Virus record (IMG/VR): IMGVR_UViG_3300031919_000004
Location: 1-56,369 of that record
DNA length: 56,369 nt
Source: a virus
Reading direction: 5' to 3' (one strand)
The notes beneath the pieces are model-generated. The model was not told the DNA's origin. It searched no databases and saw only the letters and a list, made by a program, of their open reading frames with translations. Shown piece after piece: positions 3,844 through 56,369 of this stretch (positions are counted from its first letter, which is position 1; every line of letters begins with the position of its first letter). The translations under genes and the position numbers were made by a program.

Positions 3844-4035
3844 ATGGATGTGGAATTAGTAAAAGAATTAGGTTGTCTGAAAACGGAAGTAGATAACGTA
3901 AAAGAAAGACAAGACAGGTCAGACCATGTTATTGAACGGGTTGAGGTTAAAATCGACAAACTTCAATTTTGGTTTATGGTGTTTTTCGCCGGTATGGTTG
4001 TTCAAATGGGGATCATGCTTTATAACGCAAAGTAA
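3844..4035 (+). CDS. XhlA-like holin accessory membrane protein
   Basis: 63 residues: an amphipathic coiled-coil helix (about 1-38, ending IERVEVKIDKL) followed by one membrane span (about 40-60, FWFMVFFAGMVVQMGIML). This is the architecture of the haemolysin XhlA family, which in PBSX-type phages works with the holin in lysis. A strong AAGGGGGG ribosome site precedes ATG 3844. It is the last gene before a hairpin terminator and the lysis enzymes. Confidence 0.75.
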   Translation: MDVELVKELGCLKTEVDNVKERQDRSDHVIERVEVKIDKLQFWFMVFFAGMVVQMGIMLYNAK

Positions 4036-4085: not shown

Positions 4086-5126
4086 ATGAAGCCATTTATT
4101 TTTTCAGCAAGCGACTACAAAGAATTTATTAAGGACAAGGATTGGCCTTGTTTCCCAAGTCCCTTCGACCCGAAAGACTATCCTTTTAGGTGGTTTTACA
4201 GGGGAGCGGAATTACCGGAAGCGGTGAACTATGAACCTTATATGCGGTTACGGTGGCAGGGTAAGTTCGGCACTTGCGTAGCTTTTGCCTCTATTCATGT
4301 TCGGAACTTGCATGAAACAAAGCAAGGAGATTTACCACAAGGCGGTTTAAGTCCTCTGTATTTGTATGTAAGGTGTAAGGATAAGGACGGTATTCCAGAC
4401 AAGGAAGGGACGTTTCCACGGGTTGCTATGGCGGTTATGCAGGGAGAGGGCACTTGTCCTGAAACGCTCATGCCTTATGATATGTTGAAGGACATTAATG
4501 TACTGCCTGAAGTCAATCCTAATTTTGTGAAAGAAGCAAACAAGTTTAAGATTAAGACTTATGCACGGGTGGAAAGTATTGAGGAGATTAAACAGGCACT
4601 TGTTGAGCAAGGCCCGGTACTGATTGGTATTTTAGTAACTGAAAGTTTTATGAAGGTTGGTGCTGATGGCATTGTCCCGGCTCCCAAAGGCTATTGGTTG
4701 GGAGGTCACGCTTTAGTTATCTGTGGATATGATGAGCGGAGAAAAGCCTTCCGAATTGCTAACAGTTGGGACGATTGGGGGCAGAATGGCTTTGCTTGGA
4801 TGCCTTACGAAGTGTTTGAATGGGAAACCACTGACACTAAAATACCGTTTGTTATGGAAGCGTGGACGCTGGTTGACATTGAATGGCAACCTGACAAGGA
4901 TGACTACATTAAGGACATTTTGAGCAAAGAAGTTGTTTTCCAGATTGGCAATAAAACTTATTGGGTAAACGGTAATCCTATTCAGATGGATGTTGCTCCA
5001 GAAATAAAAGACGGGCGTACCATGTTGCCTCTGCGGTTCTGTGCGGAAGGAATAGGCAAACTTCTGGATAAGCCTATTATTATTGATTGGAAAGCGGAAG
5101 AAAAGAAAGTTATTCTTAAAGTTTAA
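4086..5126 (+). CDS. Papain-family (C1) cysteine peptidase with copper-amine-oxidase-like stalk domain
   Basis: 346 residues. The order and spacing of papain catalytic elements is visible: Gln58 (oxyanion) and nucleophile Cys64 in QGKFGTCVAFA, His208 in GGHALVICGY and Asn226 in IANSWDDWGQNGF. No signal peptide or propeptide is evident. Residues about 275-346 (QIGNKTYWVNG, GRTMLPLRFCAEGIG, WKAEEKKVILKV) match the copper-amine-oxidase-N-like module that anchors surface proteins of Clostridia. It lies between an XhlA-like gene and a holin. The substrate is unknown; cell-wall-linked or S-layer protein is inferred. A phage-lysis C1 peptidase is unusual. Confidence 0.85.
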   Translation: MKPFIFSASDYKEFIKDKDWPCFPSPFDPKDYPFRWFYRGAELPEAVNYEPYMRLRWQGKFGTCVAFASIHVRNLHETKQGDLPQGGLSPLYLYVRCKDKDGIPDKEGTFPRVAMAVMQGEGTCPETLMPYDMLKDINVLPEVNPNFVKEANKFKIKTYARVESIEEIKQALVEQGPVLIGILVTESFMKVGADGIVPAPKGYWLGGHALVICGYDERRKAFRIANSWDDWGQNGFAWMPYEVFEWETTDTKIPFVMEAWTLVDIEWQPDKDDYIKDILSKEVVFQIGNKTYWVNGNPIQMDVAPEIKDGRTMLPLRFCAEGIGKLLDKPIIIDWKAEEKKVILKV

Positions 5127-5142: not shown

Positions 5143-5436
5143 ATGGGTATGGAAATGGATAAAATCATGGAAATGCTGACCTATGCTGGCATTAGTATTC
5201 CGGCTGTAATTTTGGGTTTGGTGGCAATGGCTAACAGGCTCGGTGTGCCTAAAAAGTTTTCTCCGGTGCTTTCTCTGGCTCTTGGTATTGTTTCCGGGTT
5301 TGTGTATTTAGTTCCGACTGACCCGAAAGCGGCTGTACTATTTGGCATTGTGGCGGGTCTAATCCCTGTCGGCCTGTTTAGCGGTATTAAGAACGTGGCT
5401 GAACTGATAAAAGACGATAGAAAGAAGGTAATCTAA
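5143..5436 (+). CDS. Putative holin
   Basis: 97 residues with two strongly hydrophobic segments (about 13-30, AGISIPAVILGLVAMA, and 41-80, LSLALGIVSGFVYLVP then VLFGIVAGLIPVGLF) and a charged C terminus ending DDRKKVI. GGAGGG ribosome site. It lies directly upstream of the amidase, two bases apart, which is the normal holin-endolysin order. The identification rests on membrane topology and context rather than on a sequence signature. Confidence 0.75.
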   Translation: MGMEMDKIMEMLTYAGISIPAVILGLVAMANRLGVPKKFSPVLSLALGIVSGFVYLVPTDPKAAVLFGIVAGLIPVGLFSGIKNVAELIKDDRKKVI

Positions 5437-5437
5437 T

Positions 5438-6025
5438 ATGCCTGACAAGTCCCATATTGTTATTCACCATTCGGGAACAGATGACGGGGACGTAAACTCT
5501 TTCCGCAAATATCACGTTGAAAAATTAGGCTGGCGGGACATTGGCTATAATTGGGTGATAACAAAGGAAGGAGAAAAGCAAAAAGGCCGGGACGAGAGCG
5601 ACACGGGGGCTCATTGTAAGGGTATAATGAACTATGTGGGAATAGGCGTTTGTTTAGTGGGTAATTTTGAAAAGTACCCGCCTAATGAAAAGCAAATGCA
5701 AGCACTGAAGGAATTGATTGGAGAAATACGGGGCAGGTGGCTTATACCGTTATCAAATGTAGGAATACACAACCAATACAGACAAACGGTATGCCCCGGC
5801 AGGTATTTCCCTTATGACGAGTTGATGACCGAGCTAAAAAGAGCGGAGCAAGGTTTTAAAGACATTGAAGGACATTGGGCAGAGGATGAGATTAGGCAAG
5901 CATTTGAATTGGGCATTGTGTCCGGCGTTACAGATAGCCTATTTAAGCCTGACAGGGAAGCGACAAGGGCAGAAGTCACGGCTATTGTAATGAGGGCCAT
6001 AAACAAAATTCTAAAAGGTGAGTAA
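5438..6025 (+). CDS. N-acetylmuramoyl-L-alanine amidase endolysin with one SLH motif
   Basis: 195 residues. Residues 1-135 are a T7-lysozyme/PGRP type Ami_2 domain: zinc ligand and catalytic signatures VIHHSG near the start and HNQYRQTVCPG at about 110-120 (His and Cys zinc ligands). Residues about 144-193 form one S-layer-homology motif (FKDIEGHWAEDEIRQAFELG, then GVTDSLFKPD, then RATRAEVTAIVMR). It should cleave the amide between muramic acid and L-alanine after holin opening. The single SLH copy is odd, because three usually make a binding unit; the domain suggests a host whose wall polymer carries an S-layer. Confidence 0.93.
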   Translation: MPDKSHIVIHHSGTDDGDVNSFRKYHVEKLGWRDIGYNWVITKEGEKQKGRDESDTGAHCKGIMNYVGIGVCLVGNFEKYPPNEKQMQALKELIGEIRGRWLIPLSNVGIHNQYRQTVCPGRYFPYDELMTELKRAEQGFKDIEGHWAEDEIRQAFELGIVSGVTDSLFKPDREATRAEVTAIVMRAINKILKGE

Positions 6026-6173: not shown

Positions 6174-6240
6174 GCTGGCAGGTTCAAGAAAAAATTTTCA
6201 AAAAACTTGCCATTTCTTGTTGACCATGTTTTTATTACAT
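6174..6240 (+). repeat. Direct repeat copy 1 (promoter plus A-tract upstream region)
   Basis: 67 bases that recur at 7154-7220, 980 bases away, with only two mismatches before the copies diverge near the -10. It contains A-tracts (CAAGAAAAAATTTTCAAAAAAC) typical of UP elements or bent DNA, bounded by an imperfect inverted repeat GGCAGGTT/AACTTGCC, and then the -35. Confidence 0.85.
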
Positions 6241-6248
6241 GGTAATAT
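6220..6248 (+). promoter_or_regulatory. Family A promoter of the amidoligase gene
   Basis: -35 TTGACC (6220-6225), 17-bp spacer, extended -10 TGG followed by TAATAT (6243-6248). The sequence TGGTAATATATAA is identical in the promoters at 24429, 25719 and 41018. Confidence 0.85.
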
Positions 6249-6283
6249 ATAATCAACAAGAACGAAACGGGAGGCGGTACATA

Positions 6284-7099
6284 ATGACAAACAGAACTTT
6301 CGGAGTTGAAATAGAATTTTTCGGAGTAACGAAGGAACAGGTTGCAGAAGCTCTCAACAGAGCTGGCATAGATGTAAGAGTTGAAAATTACAACCACACC
6401 ACCCGGTCGCATTGGAAGCTCGTATATGATGCAAGCGTAAACAGTGCCGGAACAGGTTGCACAAGGGGCGGTAACGAGATAGTAAGCCCGGTACTGCAAG
6501 GTGAAGAAGGACTCGAAGAACTCAAGCTGGTAGTGAAGGTTATAGAGGAAGTCGGGGGAAAAGTAGATAGGACTTGTGGAGTACACGTTCACCATGGTGC
6601 AAGCGACCTCGACCTCAACGGAATAAAGAACATAGCAAAGCTCTATACAAAATACGAACTCATCTTCGATAGCCTCGTACCGGAGAGCCGCAGGAAGAAC
6701 AACAACCGTTACTGCTGTAGCCTCACAGCAAACGAACTGCACAGCATTGAAACAGCTCAAGACCTGTGGGACATTCACGGAGAATGCATAATAAGCAGAT
6801 ACCGCAAGCTCAACGTACAAAGCTTTTTTAAATATCAGACAATCGAATTTAGACAACATGGCGGAAGCCTCAACGGTAACAAAATAGCAAACTGGATACG
6901 GCTCACCCAACAGGTAGTAGAAAAGGCGAAGGTAGCAAGGAAAGTAAATCCGATTAAAGGCGAAACAACTCTAAAGTCACAGCACAGAATGTACCAGAGA
7001 ATGAAAAAGGAACTCGGAATTGATGAAGAACTGAACAAAGAACTGCTTAAAAGAATGAAGGAACTGAATAACAGGCAAGAAGCTCGGCGGTTAGCATAG
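6284..7099 (+). CDS. Amidoligase family protein
   Basis: 271 residues from ATG 6284; an earlier in-frame ATG (6239) lies inside the promoter -10 and is rejected. GGGAGGCGG ribosome site. Family signatures: FGVEIEF at 6-12, CGVHVHH at 98-104 and IEFRQHGGSL at about 187-196, the metal/ATP-binding Glu and His motifs of the glutamine-synthetase-like amidoligase family (COOH-NH2 ligases). It should make an amide bond between a carboxylate and an amine at the expense of ATP; substrates are unknown. It stands alone between its own promoter and terminator, like a moron, and shares its promoter type with two gamma-glutamylcyclotransferase genes, which fits the known association of these families. Confidence 0.88.
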   Translation: MTNRTFGVEIEFFGVTKEQVAEALNRAGIDVRVENYNHTTRSHWKLVYDASVNSAGTGCTRGGNEIVSPVLQGEEGLEELKLVVKVIEEVGGKVDRTCGVHVHHGASDLDLNGIKNIAKLYTKYELIFDSLVPESRRKNNNRYCCSLTANELHSIETAQDLWDIHGECIISRYRKLNVQSFFKYQTIEFRQHGGSLNGNKIANWIRLTQQVVEKAKVARKVNPIKGETTLKSQHRMYQRMKKELGIDEELNKELLKRMKELNNRQEARRLA

Positions 7100-27941: not shown

Positions 27942-28417
27942 GGTTTAGACTTGGAGGCATTAATGATTTTTCAACTATTGACGGTGACGGGATTGCTTTT
28001 GTGGTCTTTTTTCAAGGTTGCCGGAAGCGGTGTAAAGGGTGTCATAACCCAGAGCTACAGCCTTTTGATGGTGGCAGGGAAGTAGATACCGAGGAAATTA
28101 TCCACCTGATACGGGACTACGGAGAGGACTATGACTCCGTGGTGTTTCAAGGTGGGGAACCTTTGGAACAGGTTGAGCCTTTAAGGGAAATGATGCAAGC
28201 CGTAAGGCAAATGGGTTTGAGGGTTTGGCTATATACGGGATACGAATTACAAGAGGTTCCAGAGGAAGTTCTGCGGCTATGTGATGTGGTTGTTGCAGGG
28301 GAGTATAAGGAGGGGCTGGCTACGGGCAGGTTCCCGGCAAGTAGTAACCAAGCGGTAGTTCATGTGTATGTTGATAGAATAGGAGGGATTTATTTTGCTA
28401 ATTGGTCTGACGTTTGA
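27938..28417 (+). CDS. nrdG: Anaerobic ribonucleotide reductase activating protein
   Basis: 159 residues from TTG 27938 overlapping the preceding stop. Radical-SAM cluster motif CRKRCKGC (Cys28, Cys32, Cys35), then VVFQGGEPLEQ (SAM-binding GGEP). It uses S-adenosylmethionine and a 4Fe-4S cluster to make the glycyl radical on NrdD. Overlaps nrdD by 23 bases. Presence of this oxygen-sensitive pair supports an anaerobic host. Confidence 0.95.
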   Translation: MRFRLGGINDFSTIDGDGIAFVVFFQGCRKRCKGCHNPELQPFDGGREVDTEEIIHLIRDYGEDYDSVVFQGGEPLEQVEPLREMMQAVRQMGLRVWLYTGYELQEVPEEVLRLCDVVVAGEYKEGLATGRFPASSNQAVVHVYVDRIGGIYFANWSDV

Positions 28418-30308
28418 AAGCGATTTTGAAAAACTGTATTATAACTATGCAAAAGACCCGGACAGGGTGAAATTATTGGATTTGGACGGAATAAGTCCGA
28501 GGAAGGTTGACGTTGGGCAAATGTCACATAATTACTTCACAAAGAAGTTGTCTGATACTTCGGTTGATATGAACGCTAACGCAAATGAGGAATTAAGTGC
28601 CAATAATTACCAAGCGGAAGTAACCAAGGGTATTTTGAAGCTGGAGGGGTATTATCTACTGTGGAGGTATGCTAAAAAGCGGTTCGGATTACAGCGGGCA
28701 AATGAGTTTATCTCCGCTATTTTAGATGGGAAGGTATATTTCCATGATGCTTCCGGGCATGGGGTGCAGGTTCCTTATTGTTTTGCTTATTCTACAAGTC
28801 ATTTAATGACGGAGGGCAGGCCATACGGACAATTGCAAAGCGTACCGCCTAAACGGGCAGATAGTTTTATTGCTCAGGTTATTGAAACTACAATGGATAT
28901 GTCTCAAGAATTTGTCGGGGCGGTAGCACCGGGGGATTTGATTGTAAACTTGTGTTATTACCTTAAAAAAGAAGGAATTGACCCGGATACGGAAGAAGGG
29001 GCTAAATATGTCCGCAACCAGTGGCAGAAATTTGTTCACGTTATGAATAATAAATTTAGGGTGAGCGGTCAAAGTCCTTTCACGAATGTCTCTATTTTTG
29101 ATAGGGAAAACCTGCGAAAATTGTTTAAGGAGTATAGGTATCCAGACGGTTCCGAGGTTGATATTGAGTATATAATGAAAGTCCAAAAGATTTGTGCAGG
29201 ATTTTTTAGTAAGGGCGACCCGTCAAGCGGTTTACCGTATAGGTTCCCGGTAATAACGGCTAATGTTAGCGTTGATGAGAATAGAAGGCCGCTGGATGAG
29301 GATTTTGTTGATTTCATAGCACAGACTAACTGTGAAAATGGAGTCTACAATATTTACGCAAATGAAGGTTCTAAAATTGCTATGTGTTGCAGGTTTATTA
29401 ATGACACGGAGAGGATGGAATACCGGGCTGATACCTTTGGTAACGGTGGCTTAAATATAGGTTCCCATAGGGTTGTGACAATTAATCTGCCCCGGATAGC
29501 ACTTGAAGCACGGGGCGACAAGGAGAAATTTTTCAATATTTTAGAGGAACGGCTACAAATAGCAAAAGAGTTGTTGTTGGTTCATAGGGAGGAAATTCTC
29601 CGGCGTAGAATTGAACGGGGGTTCCTGAAATTCTTTAATCCCTTGAAGTGGTTTAACCTTAATATGTTTTTTAGCACCATTGGTATCAACGGAGTATATG
29701 AGGCTTGCTATTTCATGGGATTGCCTATGGAGAAGGAGGAAGGACAAGAGTTTGCAGAAAGCGTTCTAATGGCAATGGAAAAAAGAGCTTTGGAATTCAG
29801 CAAGGAGACAGGAAACTCATTTAATACAGAGGAGATTCCGGCAGAGTCCACGGCTATTACGTTGGCACGGAAAGACAAACTGCTGTTTGGCGATAGGCAG
29901 GTCTTTGAATTATACAGCAACCAATACTTGCCTCTTATAGCTGATGTTACTATGATGGAACGAATTAAGCTGTCTGGCAAGTTTATGAAAATATTGAGCG
30001 GTGGCGGGATAATGCACTTGAATGTCCAAGAGAAAGTAAAAAATCCCGAAACAATGAAAAAGCTCATCATGGTTGTTTTAAAATACGGGGTTGAACACTT
30101 CGCAGTAAACTACGGTTTTGGCGAATGTGAGAACGGGCATACTTCGGTAGTAGGTACAGAGAAAACCTGTCCTATCTGTGCTGGCAAGATAACGGATTAC
30201 TATACAAGGGTTATCGGATATTTTACACGGGTAAGCTCATGGGGCGAAGTGCGGAGAGAATTTGAATACCCACGGAGGAAGTTTAAAAATGTTCGAGTGG
30301 GGGGCTAA
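28395..30308 (+). CDS. nrdD: Anaerobic (class III) ribonucleoside-triphosphate reductase
   Basis: 637 residues from TTG 28395 (ATAGGAGGG upstream). Lacks the ATP-cone regulatory domain that starts many host NrdDs and begins directly near the barrel (MSHNYFTKKLSDTSVD). Features include the ASGHGVQVPYCFAYST region, QTNCENGVYNIYANEGSK, a zinc ribbon of the C...C/CPIC kind near residues 575-598, and the glycyl-radical motif TRVIGYF (Gly608). It reduces ribonucleotides to deoxyribonucleotides for phage replication, activated by NrdG. Missing the ATP cone suggests weak dATP inhibition. Confidence 0.95.
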   Translation: MLIGLTFESDFEKLYYNYAKDPDRVKLLDLDGISPRKVDVGQMSHNYFTKKLSDTSVDMNANANEELSANNYQAEVTKGILKLEGYYLLWRYAKKRFGLQRANEFISAILDGKVYFHDASGHGVQVPYCFAYSTSHLMTEGRPYGQLQSVPPKRADSFIAQVIETTMDMSQEFVGAVAPGDLIVNLCYYLKKEGIDPDTEEGAKYVRNQWQKFVHVMNNKFRVSGQSPFTNVSIFDRENLRKLFKEYRYPDGSEVDIEYIMKVQKICAGFFSKGDPSSGLPYRFPVITANVSVDENRRPLDEDFVDFIAQTNCENGVYNIYANEGSKIAMCCRFINDTERMEYRADTFGNGGLNIGSHRVVTINLPRIALEARGDKEKFFNILEERLQIAKELLLVHREEILRRRIERGFLKFFNPLKWFNLNMFFSTIGINGVYEACYFMGLPMEKEEGQEFAESVLMAMEKRALEFSKETGNSFNTEEIPAESTAITLARKDKLLFGDRQVFELYSNQYLPLIADVTMMERIKLSGKFMKILSGGGIMHLNVQEKVKNPETMKKLIMVVLKYGVEHFAVNYGFGECENGHTSVVGTEKTCPICAGKITDYYTRVIGYFTRVSSWGEVRREFEYPRRKFKNVRVGG

Positions 30309-53400: not shown

Positions 53401-53554
53401 GAGCATGGCGGTTGTCGGCGGTGGCGGCGGAGGTTCGACAACGAATAATTCTCATACTACCAACTACTTTAATATTAGCATTGAGAGCGGTAACGCTGAA
53501 GAAGTTTGGGAGAAACTTCAAGACGAACTTCACAGGAGGGGGTTTGACTTATAA
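50450..53554 (+). CDS. Tail tape measure protein
   Basis: 1034 residues, the longest complete gene. N-terminal helix, then a hydrophobic Gly/Ala stretch (about 62-90, NPVTLATAGIAALGAGAVAA), a phage tape-measure core with AFGLDVTSSIKAVDTMTKNL, a second hydrophobic/aromatic segment (VIKFVFTDLAVVLKN-like, about 400-450), a long charged coiled coil (about 580-730 and 840-900), and a Gly/Asn C terminus. MPHSPAKVGPL and IASPSKVMKVIG are recurrent motifs of the family. Length sets the tail length; at about 1.5 angstrom per residue it would be roughly 150 nm. Confidence 0.94.
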   Translation: MAENKEFKITIRAVTDQFESAMRRTKDSFREANQSFRQGMQESNGFLNDMANNLGKSMGVLLNPVTLATAGIAALGAGAVAAGVKGMQMAMEFEDAGNKLQASLGLATEETEEFKARMEESFADARGTVQEIQEAYRMVASTMQTGAEETGRLADKALVLQEAFGLDVTSSIKAVDTMTKNLGIDGDKAFDIIATTAQKAGDKADDLLDTFWEYSNQFAEMGLDAEQFAGILTTASEEGVYNFDKVADAVKEFNIRIKDGSKTTVESMQMLLGDGATEVFNKMKSGAMTGAEAMQLVLTELQKIDDPLKREQIAVGLFGTQWEDVGDKAMLAMTKGMEGLEGFEGAMDKATDAVDDSFSKQIERIGNQFSLLAKDVAEQLLPYLKQFADFIEDNMPKIQRTVETAIDVVKFVFTDLAVVLKNAWEIFKLGYTIVKETVGLIVDVLTGDFEGAKQRVINIFEAIKTAISDIFDNILGAVKTKFNIIKEHITDKGKDIVNGLWEGLQEKTEWLKGKVTEWIKAVLPGPIEKALGIASPSKVMKVIGQQSAEGLALGVVDGKSKVQQAVTQLAVVMGESVKTMTDKYNKTLYQMELQFSKERMKLRVEEMQKEIERTQTEVQESEKRIEQLKKELKEYKKGSEDYEKISEDIRRETENLAKVQERAAKARANAEQQAKSLVISALQQQRNILEDVQDVWERHHQALAEAKEEYQRRVREVNRQLAEDERRLTEDLKRQIEQRAQDLMNWTGLFDVVSFSGEGITGGELLGNLRDQVNAFDEWQEQIGLLAQKGVDEGLIKELQKMGPKALPQIKALNKLSDEELTEYVNLYRMKAQQAREEAMRQLEQQRRETQMKLMEIRANAYRQLEMYRQKWAEKQKEIRKNTMEELDAIERRYKQMAENSTHYGVSLMENFIGGVRSRFGVLRSTLEQMMEMVDMYMPHSPAKVGPLKKLDEYGPAMVQEIARGIQGSLPTLERAVNQMAQVPSMAVVGGGGGGSTTNNSHTTNYFNISIESGNAEEVWEKLQDELHRRGFDL

Positions 53555-56369
53555 TGGCTCGTAGTTTGAAAATTGCAGGAGTTGAACGGTGGAAAGACTA
53601 TATAGGGAATTCCCTTGACATTAAACTGGGGCTTACGAGTGAGATTAATACCGCCTCATTTAAGGTCAGAGGGGTTCAGCCTTCCGAAGGTGAGGAGGTT
53701 ATAATCGAGGACTCCGGCGTTGGAAGAATGTTTGCTGGTATTATCAATAAGGTGACAATGGAAGAAAAGATGCCGGGGGCAAATGTAGCGGTCTGGAAGT
53801 GTGATTGTGACGACTATACATTTATGTTGAATAAACGTCTTGCGGTGGAGGTATATGAGGGATACTCCGCTGACCAGATTATTATTGACCTCATTAATAA
53901 ATACGGTAATGGAGAATTTACCACCAATGGCGTTAGGACAGGGGCTCCAACAGTTGAAAAATTAGTCTTTGACTATGTTCCCATTGCGGAAGCGTTTAAG
54001 AAGGTTGCTGAATATGTAAATTGGGAATGGGACGTTAATTTTTACAGGGATATACAATTTTTTAACCCAATGGAAAAGCAGGAAGAAGCACCAATGACAT
54101 TAACCCCGGGCGGGTATTTTAGGAAGTTTACCCATTCGGTCAATACAAGAGGATTAAGGAACCGGGTATATGTGCGGGGCGGTAAGACACTATCTAACCC
54201 GTGGACTTATGAGATTGCGGCTGATGGTAAAGCACGGGCTTGGGTATTGCCTCACAAGCCTCATAATTTAAGCATAACTGTTTCCGGTTCACCTGTAACG
54301 GTGGGCATTGAGAACGTACACGACCCGGCTAATTATGACGTACTAATGAATTACCATGAAAAAAGGGTTGTGGCTACGGATAACCTGACTACGCCTGTTG
54401 ATGGGGCAACCTTGGCTTTCACTTATCAATATGGTATTGATGTTATCACTATGGTTGAGGATACTGCCTCACAGGAGGAGCTTAAAAAGGTTCAAGGCGG
54501 GGACGGGGTCTATGAACACGTTATTATTAATGAACAGTTAGACTCCATTGAGGCCGCAGAGGTAGCCGCAAAGAATGACATTATCGAACACGGGAACCCG
54601 GTTGTTCAAGGAACATTTGAAACTGAAGTACCGGGATGGAAGCCGGGGCAGTTGGTAACAGTCAACCTGCCGGAGAGGGGCGTTAATAATACTTTTTTAG
54701 TACGGAAGGTATCAATAAAACCTGTTACTAATGATAAATGGACTTATAAGGTTCAATACGGCGGCAAGTTGTTAGGCATTGCCGATTATCTCAAGGCAAT
54801 TTACAGTAAAACGCAAGAAAAAGACCTTGCAGAGACTACTACTTTACACAAATTTATTTATTGGGACGAGACGGCGTTAATCAATGACGAATTATATCTA
54901 ACAGTAAAAGAATTGCCTTGGAAAGTTGAAGAAAGCATAGAATTTAAACAAAAACAGGATGAAATAAAATTAATTGATAAAATTTATCATATTGGGTTAC
55001 AGTTTAATGGAGTTGACGGTAAAGTACAAATACCTAATGATTCAAGCATTAATGATGGCGGGCCTTGGGCAAAAAAGACAATTTTAATTAAATTTGAAAC
55101 GGCAGATGATATAAGCACAATGCAATTTTTATATGAAGAAGGTGAAGCAACCAGAGGACTTAATATATTTATTAATAGCGGTTATTTATATGTTACAGGA
55201 TGGAATAACTATGATGATGATGGAGGAGCTACAACGCCGTGGGGTGTTTTATATGTAAAAACGCCTATTGAAGCAAATAAAGTTTATTATGCAGGATTGA
55301 TTTATTCTCATTCAGGAAATCTAAGTGATGGAAAAACTGGATATATAATGGGTTTTTTAAACGGTAAAATTTTTGGACGTGTTGGAGGGGCAGGGTTACT
55401 TTATAATCATACGGGTGATGTTACTTTTGGAGGAGATGCTGATAGTCTTTTACCTGACGGGTTAACTGCAAGCGGTTGTTGGTTTAAAGGTAAAATTTTT
55501 GAAGGTAGTTACTGGAATGGGGTGGCATTAACAGCAGAAGAAATTAATGAATATAAACATTTAACAGGTAATGAACCTGGACTTACTTTTTGGTGGCCTA
55601 TGAGGGATGGGACAGGGTCAATAGTAACTGAAAAGATTAATGGTCTTGATGGAACAATTTTAGGGGGAGTCGCTTGGGTTACAACTAATATAATAGGTGT
55701 AGATAATAGAGGTTTACAATTACAATACACCTCTAAAGATGAGCCTATATTTACACGTTCTTCTACGGCTTATAAACAAGATGGGTCTGAAGTAGCGGCA
55801 GATGTTCCACGTTTTGAGCTTGGCAAATTTAGCCAGGCGATAATGGTGGAGGAGGGGACAACAAATCTACTGCCTGCTGCAAGCAATTGGACAGATAAAA
55901 CTAGCGGGCATGGAACCATTTTATCTGATTACGAAGTTTCTATTACTCCTGGTAGTAATTACTTTTATCAGTGTTATACTCCCATAACTGCTGGATTAAA
56001 TTATAGTCTTTCAGGGGAAAAATTTACAGGCACAGGTAGGATTTATTTGTATTTTTGTGATAGCAATAAAGTCAGAATAAGTAGTGACATGATAGCTCCT
56101 TGTTCGGGCATCGCTCCTGAAAATGCTGTATATGCCGAGGTTATACTGCATAATTTAAATGACGCAAACACGGTTGTTTTGGGGAAATGGCAACTCGAAC
56201 AAAAACCCTACGTCACCTCCTTCATCGACGGCACCCGCTCCCCCGAGACCCTGACCATCCCCACGGCGGGGGTTCTGAACCCGCAGGAGGGGACGGTGGA
56301 ATTTTGGATAAAGGCACAAGATTTGTATAGTCGAAGAAGAGACATGTTCACTATCAATACATCATCTAG
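53554..56369 (+). CDS. Tail hub / tail fibre protein with LamG-like domains (3' truncated by window edge)
   Basis: ATG 53554 overlaps the tape-measure stop; 938 codons run to the window edge without a stop. Residues about 1-430 look like a prophage endopeptidase-tail or baseplate hub domain (IEDSGVGRMFAGIINKVTME, VNTRGLRNRVYVRGG, PGWKPGQLVTVNLPERGVN). From about 430, sugar-binding LamG/concanavalin-like domains follow (GLQFNGVDGKVQIPNDSSIN, YWNGVALTAEEINEYKHLTG), then a second beta domain and SFIDGTRSPETLTIPTAGVL, the usual start of another LamG. The gene probably continues at the left edge of the window. It adsorbs to the host surface. Confidence 0.88.
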   Translation, partial: MARSLKIAGVERWKDYIGNSLDIKLGLTSEINTASFKVRGVQPSEGEEVIIEDSGVGRMFAGIINKVTMEEKMPGANVAVWKCDCDDYTFMLNKRLAVEVYEGYSADQIIIDLINKYGNGEFTTNGVRTGAPTVEKLVFDYVPIAEAFKKVAEYVNWEWDVNFYRDIQFFNPMEKQEEAPMTLTPGGYFRKFTHSVNTRGLRNRVYVRGGKTLSNPWTYEIAADGKARAWVLPHKPHNLSITVSGSPVTVGIENVHDPANYDVLMNYHEKRVVATDNLTTPVDGATLAFTYQYGIDVITMVEDTASQEELKKVQGGDGVYEHVIINEQLDSIEAAEVAAKNDIIEHGNPVVQGTFETEVPGWKPGQLVTVNLPERGVNNTFLVRKVSIKPVTNDKWTYKVQYGGKLLGIADYLKAIYSKTQEKDLAETTTLHKFIYWDETALINDELYLTVKELPWKVEESIEFKQKQDEIKLIDKIYHIGLQFNGVDGKVQIPNDSSINDGGPWAKKTILIKFETADDISTMQFLYEEGEATRGLNIFINSGYLYVTGWNNYDDDGGATTPWGVLYVKTPIEANKVYYAGLIYSHSGNLSDGKTGYIMGFLNGKIFGRVGGAGLLYNHTGDVTFGGDADSLLPDGLTASGCWFKGKIFEGSYWNGVALTAEEINEYKHLTGNEPGLTFWWPMRDGTGSIVTEKINGLDGTILGGVAWVTTNIIGVDNRGLQLQYTSKDEPIFTRSSTAYKQDGSEVAADVPRFELGKFSQAIMVEEGTTNLLPAASNWTDKTSGHGTILSDYEVSITPGSNYFYQCYTPITAGLNYSLSGEKFTGTGRIYLYFCDSNKVRISSDMIAPCSGIAPENAVYAEVILHNLNDANTVVLGKWQLEQKPYVTSFIDGTRSPETLTIPTAGVLNPQEGTVEFWIKAQDLYSRRRDMFTINTSS

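Follow-up and report, generated by a model that had tools for sequence, protein, structure and literature searches.

The C1A family of papain-family peptidases includes Cwp84 of C. difficile, and spanins and LysB are known as additional lysis proteins, each adapted to one type of outer envelope layer. The cysteine protease Cwp84 cleaves the S-layer protein SlpA (PMC4414356). Phage acquisitions of xylellain-type C1A peptidases have been noted (PMC10380794), and PHROG 16701, which covers such peptidases, is placed in the category 'other'; no lysis role for the xylellain type was found in the literature searched. For C1A peptidases in general, the literature yielded no lysis role except for the papain-family N5 domain of mycobacteriophage LysA, a C39-like N-terminal endolysin domain (PMC3314691). 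PF07833 domains are frequent in wall hydrolases (PMC4137172). S-layers hinder the binding and access of endolysins from outside (PMC9368847, PMC12285257), and the second of these reports described in 2025 an SLH-bearing endolysin, LysBT1. C1A peptidases in phages, papain-family domains in LysA and an SLH endolysin were thus already known. No report of a C1A peptidase fused to a copper-amine-oxidase-like domain (C1A-CuAO) as a conserved lysis-cassette member was found in the literature searched, and it is this component that appears to be new.

The window, that is, the whole stretch analysed here, is viral DNA of 56,369 nucleotides (IMGVR_UViG_3300031919_000004). Its plus-strand ORF at 4086-5126, with an ATG start and the ribosome-binding site AAGGGGG, encodes a 346-aa protein in which a C1A papain-family peptidase is followed by a C-terminal CuAO 'stalk' domain. 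Both Pfam matches exceed the curated cut-offs (PF00112, E = 4.7e-13, 50.2 bits against 20.7; PF07833, E = 6e-14, 52.4 bits against 24.2), and the protein matches PHROG 16701 'peptidase' (E = 2.9e-21). The C1 peptidase domain spans approximately residues 40-263 (4203-4874, plus strand), and the copper-amine-oxidase-N-like domain approximately residues 276-346 (4911-5123, plus strand; Pfam match 255-326); a homologue of the latter is present in the viral C1A-CuAO relatives. An earlier note on this DNA, made from the letters alone, had claimed that Gln58, Cys64, His208 and Asn226 are in place and that a copper-amine-oxidase-like module is appended. The PF07833 match bears out the module, and all four residues were found at these positions (plus-strand codons 4257-4259, 4275-4277, 4707-4709 and 4761-4763), and the quartet is conserved without exception in 36/36 aligned relatives; when very distant phage C1A sequences were aligned, no usable conserved stretch was obtained. 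In the AlphaFold model, pLDDT was above 90 across most of the C1 domain, while the CuAO part had low to moderate confidence. The best PDB match of the model in Foldseek was xylellain (3ois, E = 1.9e-19, TMt 0.78), consistent with a papain fold. Residue conservation and the predicted fold thus gave no sign of a blocked active site, an objection that the note itself had raised, and the product is apparently a xylellain-type C1A peptidase, active as judged by residues and fold. No transmembrane segment was predicted in the protein and no signal peptide was evident.

The same note had placed this gene in a lysis cassette beside an SLH-bearing amidase, and the members of this cassette lie on the plus strand. 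An XhlA-like membrane protein of 63 aa with one transmembrane segment (42-60) opens the cassette (3844-4035; PF10779 E = 0.0026, below the cut-off) and resembles the neighbour of the C1A-CuAO gene in contig L194 (34% over 44 aa, pairwise E = 8e-10). It is followed by C1A-CuAO, then by a 97-aa holin with three transmembrane segments (5143-5436; phrog_1299, E = 4e-17; 31% to the L202 cassette holin), and finally by an endolysin (5438-6025) that combines Amidase_2 (PF01510, E = 9e-17) with one C-terminal SLH (PF00395, E = 1.3e-11; approximately 5855-5977). The gaps between the four genes are 50, 16 and 1 nt, and the holin and endolysin genes adjacent to C1A-CuAO place it within a lysis module. 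No match to an I42 inhibitor was found among the neighbouring genes of the window. Directly 3' of the cassette lies an Amidoligase_2 gene (6239-7099, E = 5e-44), and at 28395-30308 the window encodes the large subunit of an anaerobic ribonucleotide reductase (NrdD-like), which fits an anaerobic host. The record may represent a circularly permuted genome that was opened inside the tail region, because a long ORF beyond the tape measure gene (53554-56367) is truncated by the window end and further tail-like genes are present at the start.

The window protein shares its fold, its catalytic quartet and a short N-terminal region with xylellain-type C1A peptidases, but differs from them in its fusion to PF07833 and its position in a lysis cassette. 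It resembles Cwp84 as a cysteine protease that would act on S-layer protein at the cell surface, a substrate that is only proposed for C1A-CuAO; Cwp84, however, is a host housekeeping enzyme exported by a signal peptide, whereas the window protein is a phage protein that has no evident one and carries CuAO. LysBT1 combines an amidase with SLH as the window endolysin does, but the available part of its description (PMC12285257) mentions no C1A partner. Mycobacteriophage LysA likewise has a papain-family domain within a lysis protein, but as part of the endolysin and not as a separate C1A-CuAO protein (PMC3314691).

A single-protein scan of viral contigs and a megablast of the first 25 kb of the window against phage records returned no relatives. 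Eleven C1A-CuAO contigs (L193-L203, L200 being redundant to L199) came from a family-aware scan of viral contigs, and a second viral scan, based on another alignment, added seven new loci. The architecture was thereby found in 17 further non-redundant viral contigs, plus cassettes in two Bacillota genomes (G001 and G416). C1A-CuAO lies beside an XhlA-like gene in L194 and is followed by a holin (phrog_36209) in the Mu-like contig L193, by Amidase_2 and a transmembrane protein in L196, by Amidase_3+SLH and Phage_holin_4_1 in L198, by two small proteins and Amidase_3 in L199, by a glucosaminidase and a phrog_1299-like holin in L202, and by a transmembrane protein and a glucosaminidase in L203; in L195 the order is XhlA-like, C1A-CuAO, Amidase_3 and a holin (phrog_9987). 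An amidase homologue lies within three genes of C1A-CuAO in L253, L254, L257 and L259; that of L257 also bears a CuAO segment, and the C-terminal end of that of L254 resembles one, although the profile reported no match. Among the cassette endolysins checked, only those of the window and L198 had a Pfam SLH match. In G001, an XhlA-like gene precedes a full-length relative of the window protein (41%) and an Amidase_3 that itself carries CuAO, with Phage_holin_1 close by; this cassette could be what is left of a prophage or a release cassette that has been domesticated. In this region (L173, G001:C34:158000-177000), several paralogous genes and a very large protein that looks repetitive lie upstream of the cassette, and no homologues of the other proteins encoded by the window were found nearby. 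In G416, C1A is followed by a CuAO segment in an overlapping frame, an Amidase_2 and a holin (phrog_263); the different frames of C1A and CuAO (L190, 4469-5406) could reflect a true split, a frameshift or an assembly error. Two related proteins (36% over 241 aa) are encoded after C1A-CuAO at L167 5462-6166 and L264 6531-7487. They look glycoside-hydrolase-like by eye, the L264 copy has an SLH-like tail and the L167 protein has no Pfam match; they are possibly an unannotated endolysin type.

We asked how often lysis genes lie near C1A genes, taking lysin and holin seeds solely from other loci and counting a lysis homologue within three genes. One was present at 7/11 non-redundant viral C1A-CuAO loci (window included) but at only 4/130 viral C1A loci that lack CuAO (Fisher P = 5e-7). 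The second sample gave 5/7 C1A-CuAO loci against 2/41 viral C1A loci without CuAO (P = 2e-4); these counts use our own ORF calls and seed lysins mostly of Gram-positive cassettes, so other lysin types beside C1A-only genes may be missed. As a partial independent check, Pfam was run on 148 genes neighbouring C1A genes in a pattern-based viral sample, with control genes also examined; this gave about three lysozyme-like matches among the best 25 of 66 families. Given the rarity of lysozyme-like families among these 148 neighbours, a general membership of viral C1A genes in lysis was rejected. Both comparisons, together with these rare lysozyme-like neighbours, indicate that the association with lysis is a feature of C1A-CuAO and of some isolated other cases, and does not extend to viral C1A genes overall. 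In addition, holin and endolysin types vary among the cassettes, while C1A-CuAO is constant. Because of this enrichment, the exchangeable holins and endolysins and the fully conserved quartet, C1A-CuAO is a recurrent member of lysis cassettes in Bacillota phages and is predicted to be an accessory lysis enzyme.

It is highly improbable that C1A-CuAO is instead a virion or moron protein that lies beside lysis genes only because these follow tail genes. Several phages do have C1A-CuAO directly after tail-like genes, and no recognised endolysin or holin adjoins it in L197 and L256; L197 is a truncated contig in which it adjoins a terminase-like gene. L201, where it adjoins a 3D-domain gene, is a further exception to the lysis context. 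Against a virion or moron role, L259 carries C1A-CuAO downstream of its amidase homologue, viral C1A genes without CuAO rarely adjoin lysis genes, and the pair of C1A-CuAO and holin in L193 lies between GemA upstream and Mu gp27 and terminase downstream. Since L193 is Mu-like, the pairing there is independent of nearness to tail genes.

Most phage C1A-CuAO proteins form one clade (support 90/90). A second clade contains stand-alone chromosomal C1A-CuAO genes together with the phage copies of L201 and L202 and with L167 of genome G110, and because these phage copies nest among chromosomal ones, exchange of C1A-CuAO genes between host and phage has probably occurred. The chromosomal copies have ordinary gene neighbours, no lysis genes recognised near them and no evident signal peptide; the C1A-CuAO architecture is therefore not lysis-specific. 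Three chromosomal C1A proteins with a different C-terminal tail (L164, L165 and L191) group with a protein of phage THSA-485A (100/100), likely another host-phage exchange. The earlier note had held that relatives lying away from lysis genes would tell against its reading; this applies to C1A without CuAO and to chromosomal C1A-CuAO, whereas the majority of phage C1A-CuAO genes do lie near lysis genes. It had also proposed a search for C1 peptidases beside holins in other Clostridia phages; cassettes with both a C1A gene and a holin are present, for example, in L193, L195, L198, L202 and THSA-485A.

C1A genes without CuAO also occur in named phages, and in three of them, THSA-485A, Lilbeanie and MMB025, the context is still one of lysis. 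In THSA-485A (Thermoanaerobacterium), the C1A gene, Tsac_2838, lies between a GH25/PG_binding_1 endolysin and a holin (phrog_13712), and the C1A protein and endolysin have a common short C-terminal motif (10/23 residues, pairwise E = 0.003). Burkholderia phage FLC9 and Streptomyces phages Sycamore and BillNye have C1A with no annotated lysis gene near. On a Priestia megaterium plasmid (NZ_CP085450.1; L249, 6019-7213), a C1 family peptidase gene, a relative at 35%, is followed at once by an I42 inhibitor gene, possibly a self-protection pair; the I42 family inhibits protein-cutting C1A peptidases.

The main rival to a protein-cutting role is that the C1A domain is an endolysin-type endopeptidase acting on peptidoglycan stem peptides or cross-links, with CuAO binding the wall, which we regard as unlikely. 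The L193 locus has no other recognised lysin in the interval between GemA and gp27/terminase, near which the lysis genes lie in the Mu gene order; in Gordonia phage Lilbeanie, C1A lies between lysin A and holin, with lysin B also nearby, and we know of no S-layer in Gordonia; and Alicyclobacillus phage MMB025 fuses C1A to an Rv2525c-like glycoside-hydrolase-like domain and PG_binding_1 in a 753-aa 'endolysin', that is, to a glycan-side enzyme. These three cases raise doubt about a protein substrate, and papain-family domains are known in LysA (PMC3314691). On the other hand, L193 is only 5 kb long, so its lysin may lie elsewhere. A protein substrate is favoured because C1A protein peptidases, and not NlpC/P60 or CHAP, are what the enzyme matches in sequence and fold, because most cassettes already include a peptidoglycan hydrolase, and because the Priestia relative is paired with a protease-inhibitor gene. 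It is also favoured because G001 and G416, both of which bear the cassette, are rich in SLH-type surface proteins (77 and 28 PF00395 matches, respectively) and in PF07833 (67 and 14 matches), and because with Cwp84 there is already a cysteine protease that acts on S-layer protein (PMC4414356). The earlier note had stated that lysis cassettes are not normally directed at proteins. This is qualified by the papain-family domains already known in mycobacteriophage LysA (PMC3314691).

We give roughly even chances to a dedicated third lysis enzyme that is released by the holin, held in the wall by CuAO and cuts wall-anchored proteins. From the gene order and the missing export signals, C1A-CuAO would accumulate in the cytosol alongside the amidase and would need the holin for exit, since no signal peptide is evident; once the holin opens the membrane, both enzymes would leave together. 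Cytosolic synthesis and the tight operon also fit a protease that activates or removes holin, antiholin, endolysin or host autolysin within the cytosol. We consider such a processing role improbable, given that the partner holins and endolysins are unrelated among cassettes and so offer no common substrate, and that a wall-associated C-terminal domain would serve no purpose there. For the third lysis enzyme, CuAO would instead retain the protease in the wall, as SLH would for the amidase; CuAO is also found on the cassette amidases of G001 and L257.

The C1A domain would then cleave proteins anchored in the wall, with SLH-anchored S-layer proteins or other surface proteins as the likeliest targets, and after peptidoglycan cleavage the coat would be unable to hold the cell or the progeny together. 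S-layer protein is a plausible substrate, and the suggestion of the earlier note that the enzyme could strip the protein coat of an S-layer host during lysis is consistent with the findings. Against this reading, the S-layer lies outside the wall, so a protease is possibly unneeded once the peptidoglycan is cut, and a Pfam SLH match is limited to two of the cassette endolysins checked. Removal of S-layer-borne phage receptors, by which progeny would avoid binding debris or infecting lysed cells, has a low probability in our view; some Bacillus phages require the S-layer for infection (PMC9703825), and release with the lysis enzymes would put the protease on debris, but no receptor is known for these phages and the effect would be indistinguishable from plain coat removal. 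That phages of S-layered Bacillota share a third, conserved and distinct kind of lysis enzyme, namely a C1A protease anchored in the wall that takes off the protein coat, we judge a tentative proposal, somewhat short of an even chance.

If true, coat removal by C1A would parallel the way in which spanins and LysB deal with outer membranes, a working analogy only, as spanins and LysB are not proteases and share no common family with C1A-CuAO. Phage lysis models cover the inner membrane, the peptidoglycan and, in some hosts, the outer membrane or mycolate layer, and have yet to explain how phages get past a crystalline protein coat. S-layered cells are shielded from endolysins, and C1A-CuAO may be one enzyme to combine with these against such cells. 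A conserved lysis-cassette protease would also provide a defined protein for the study of passage through the coat.
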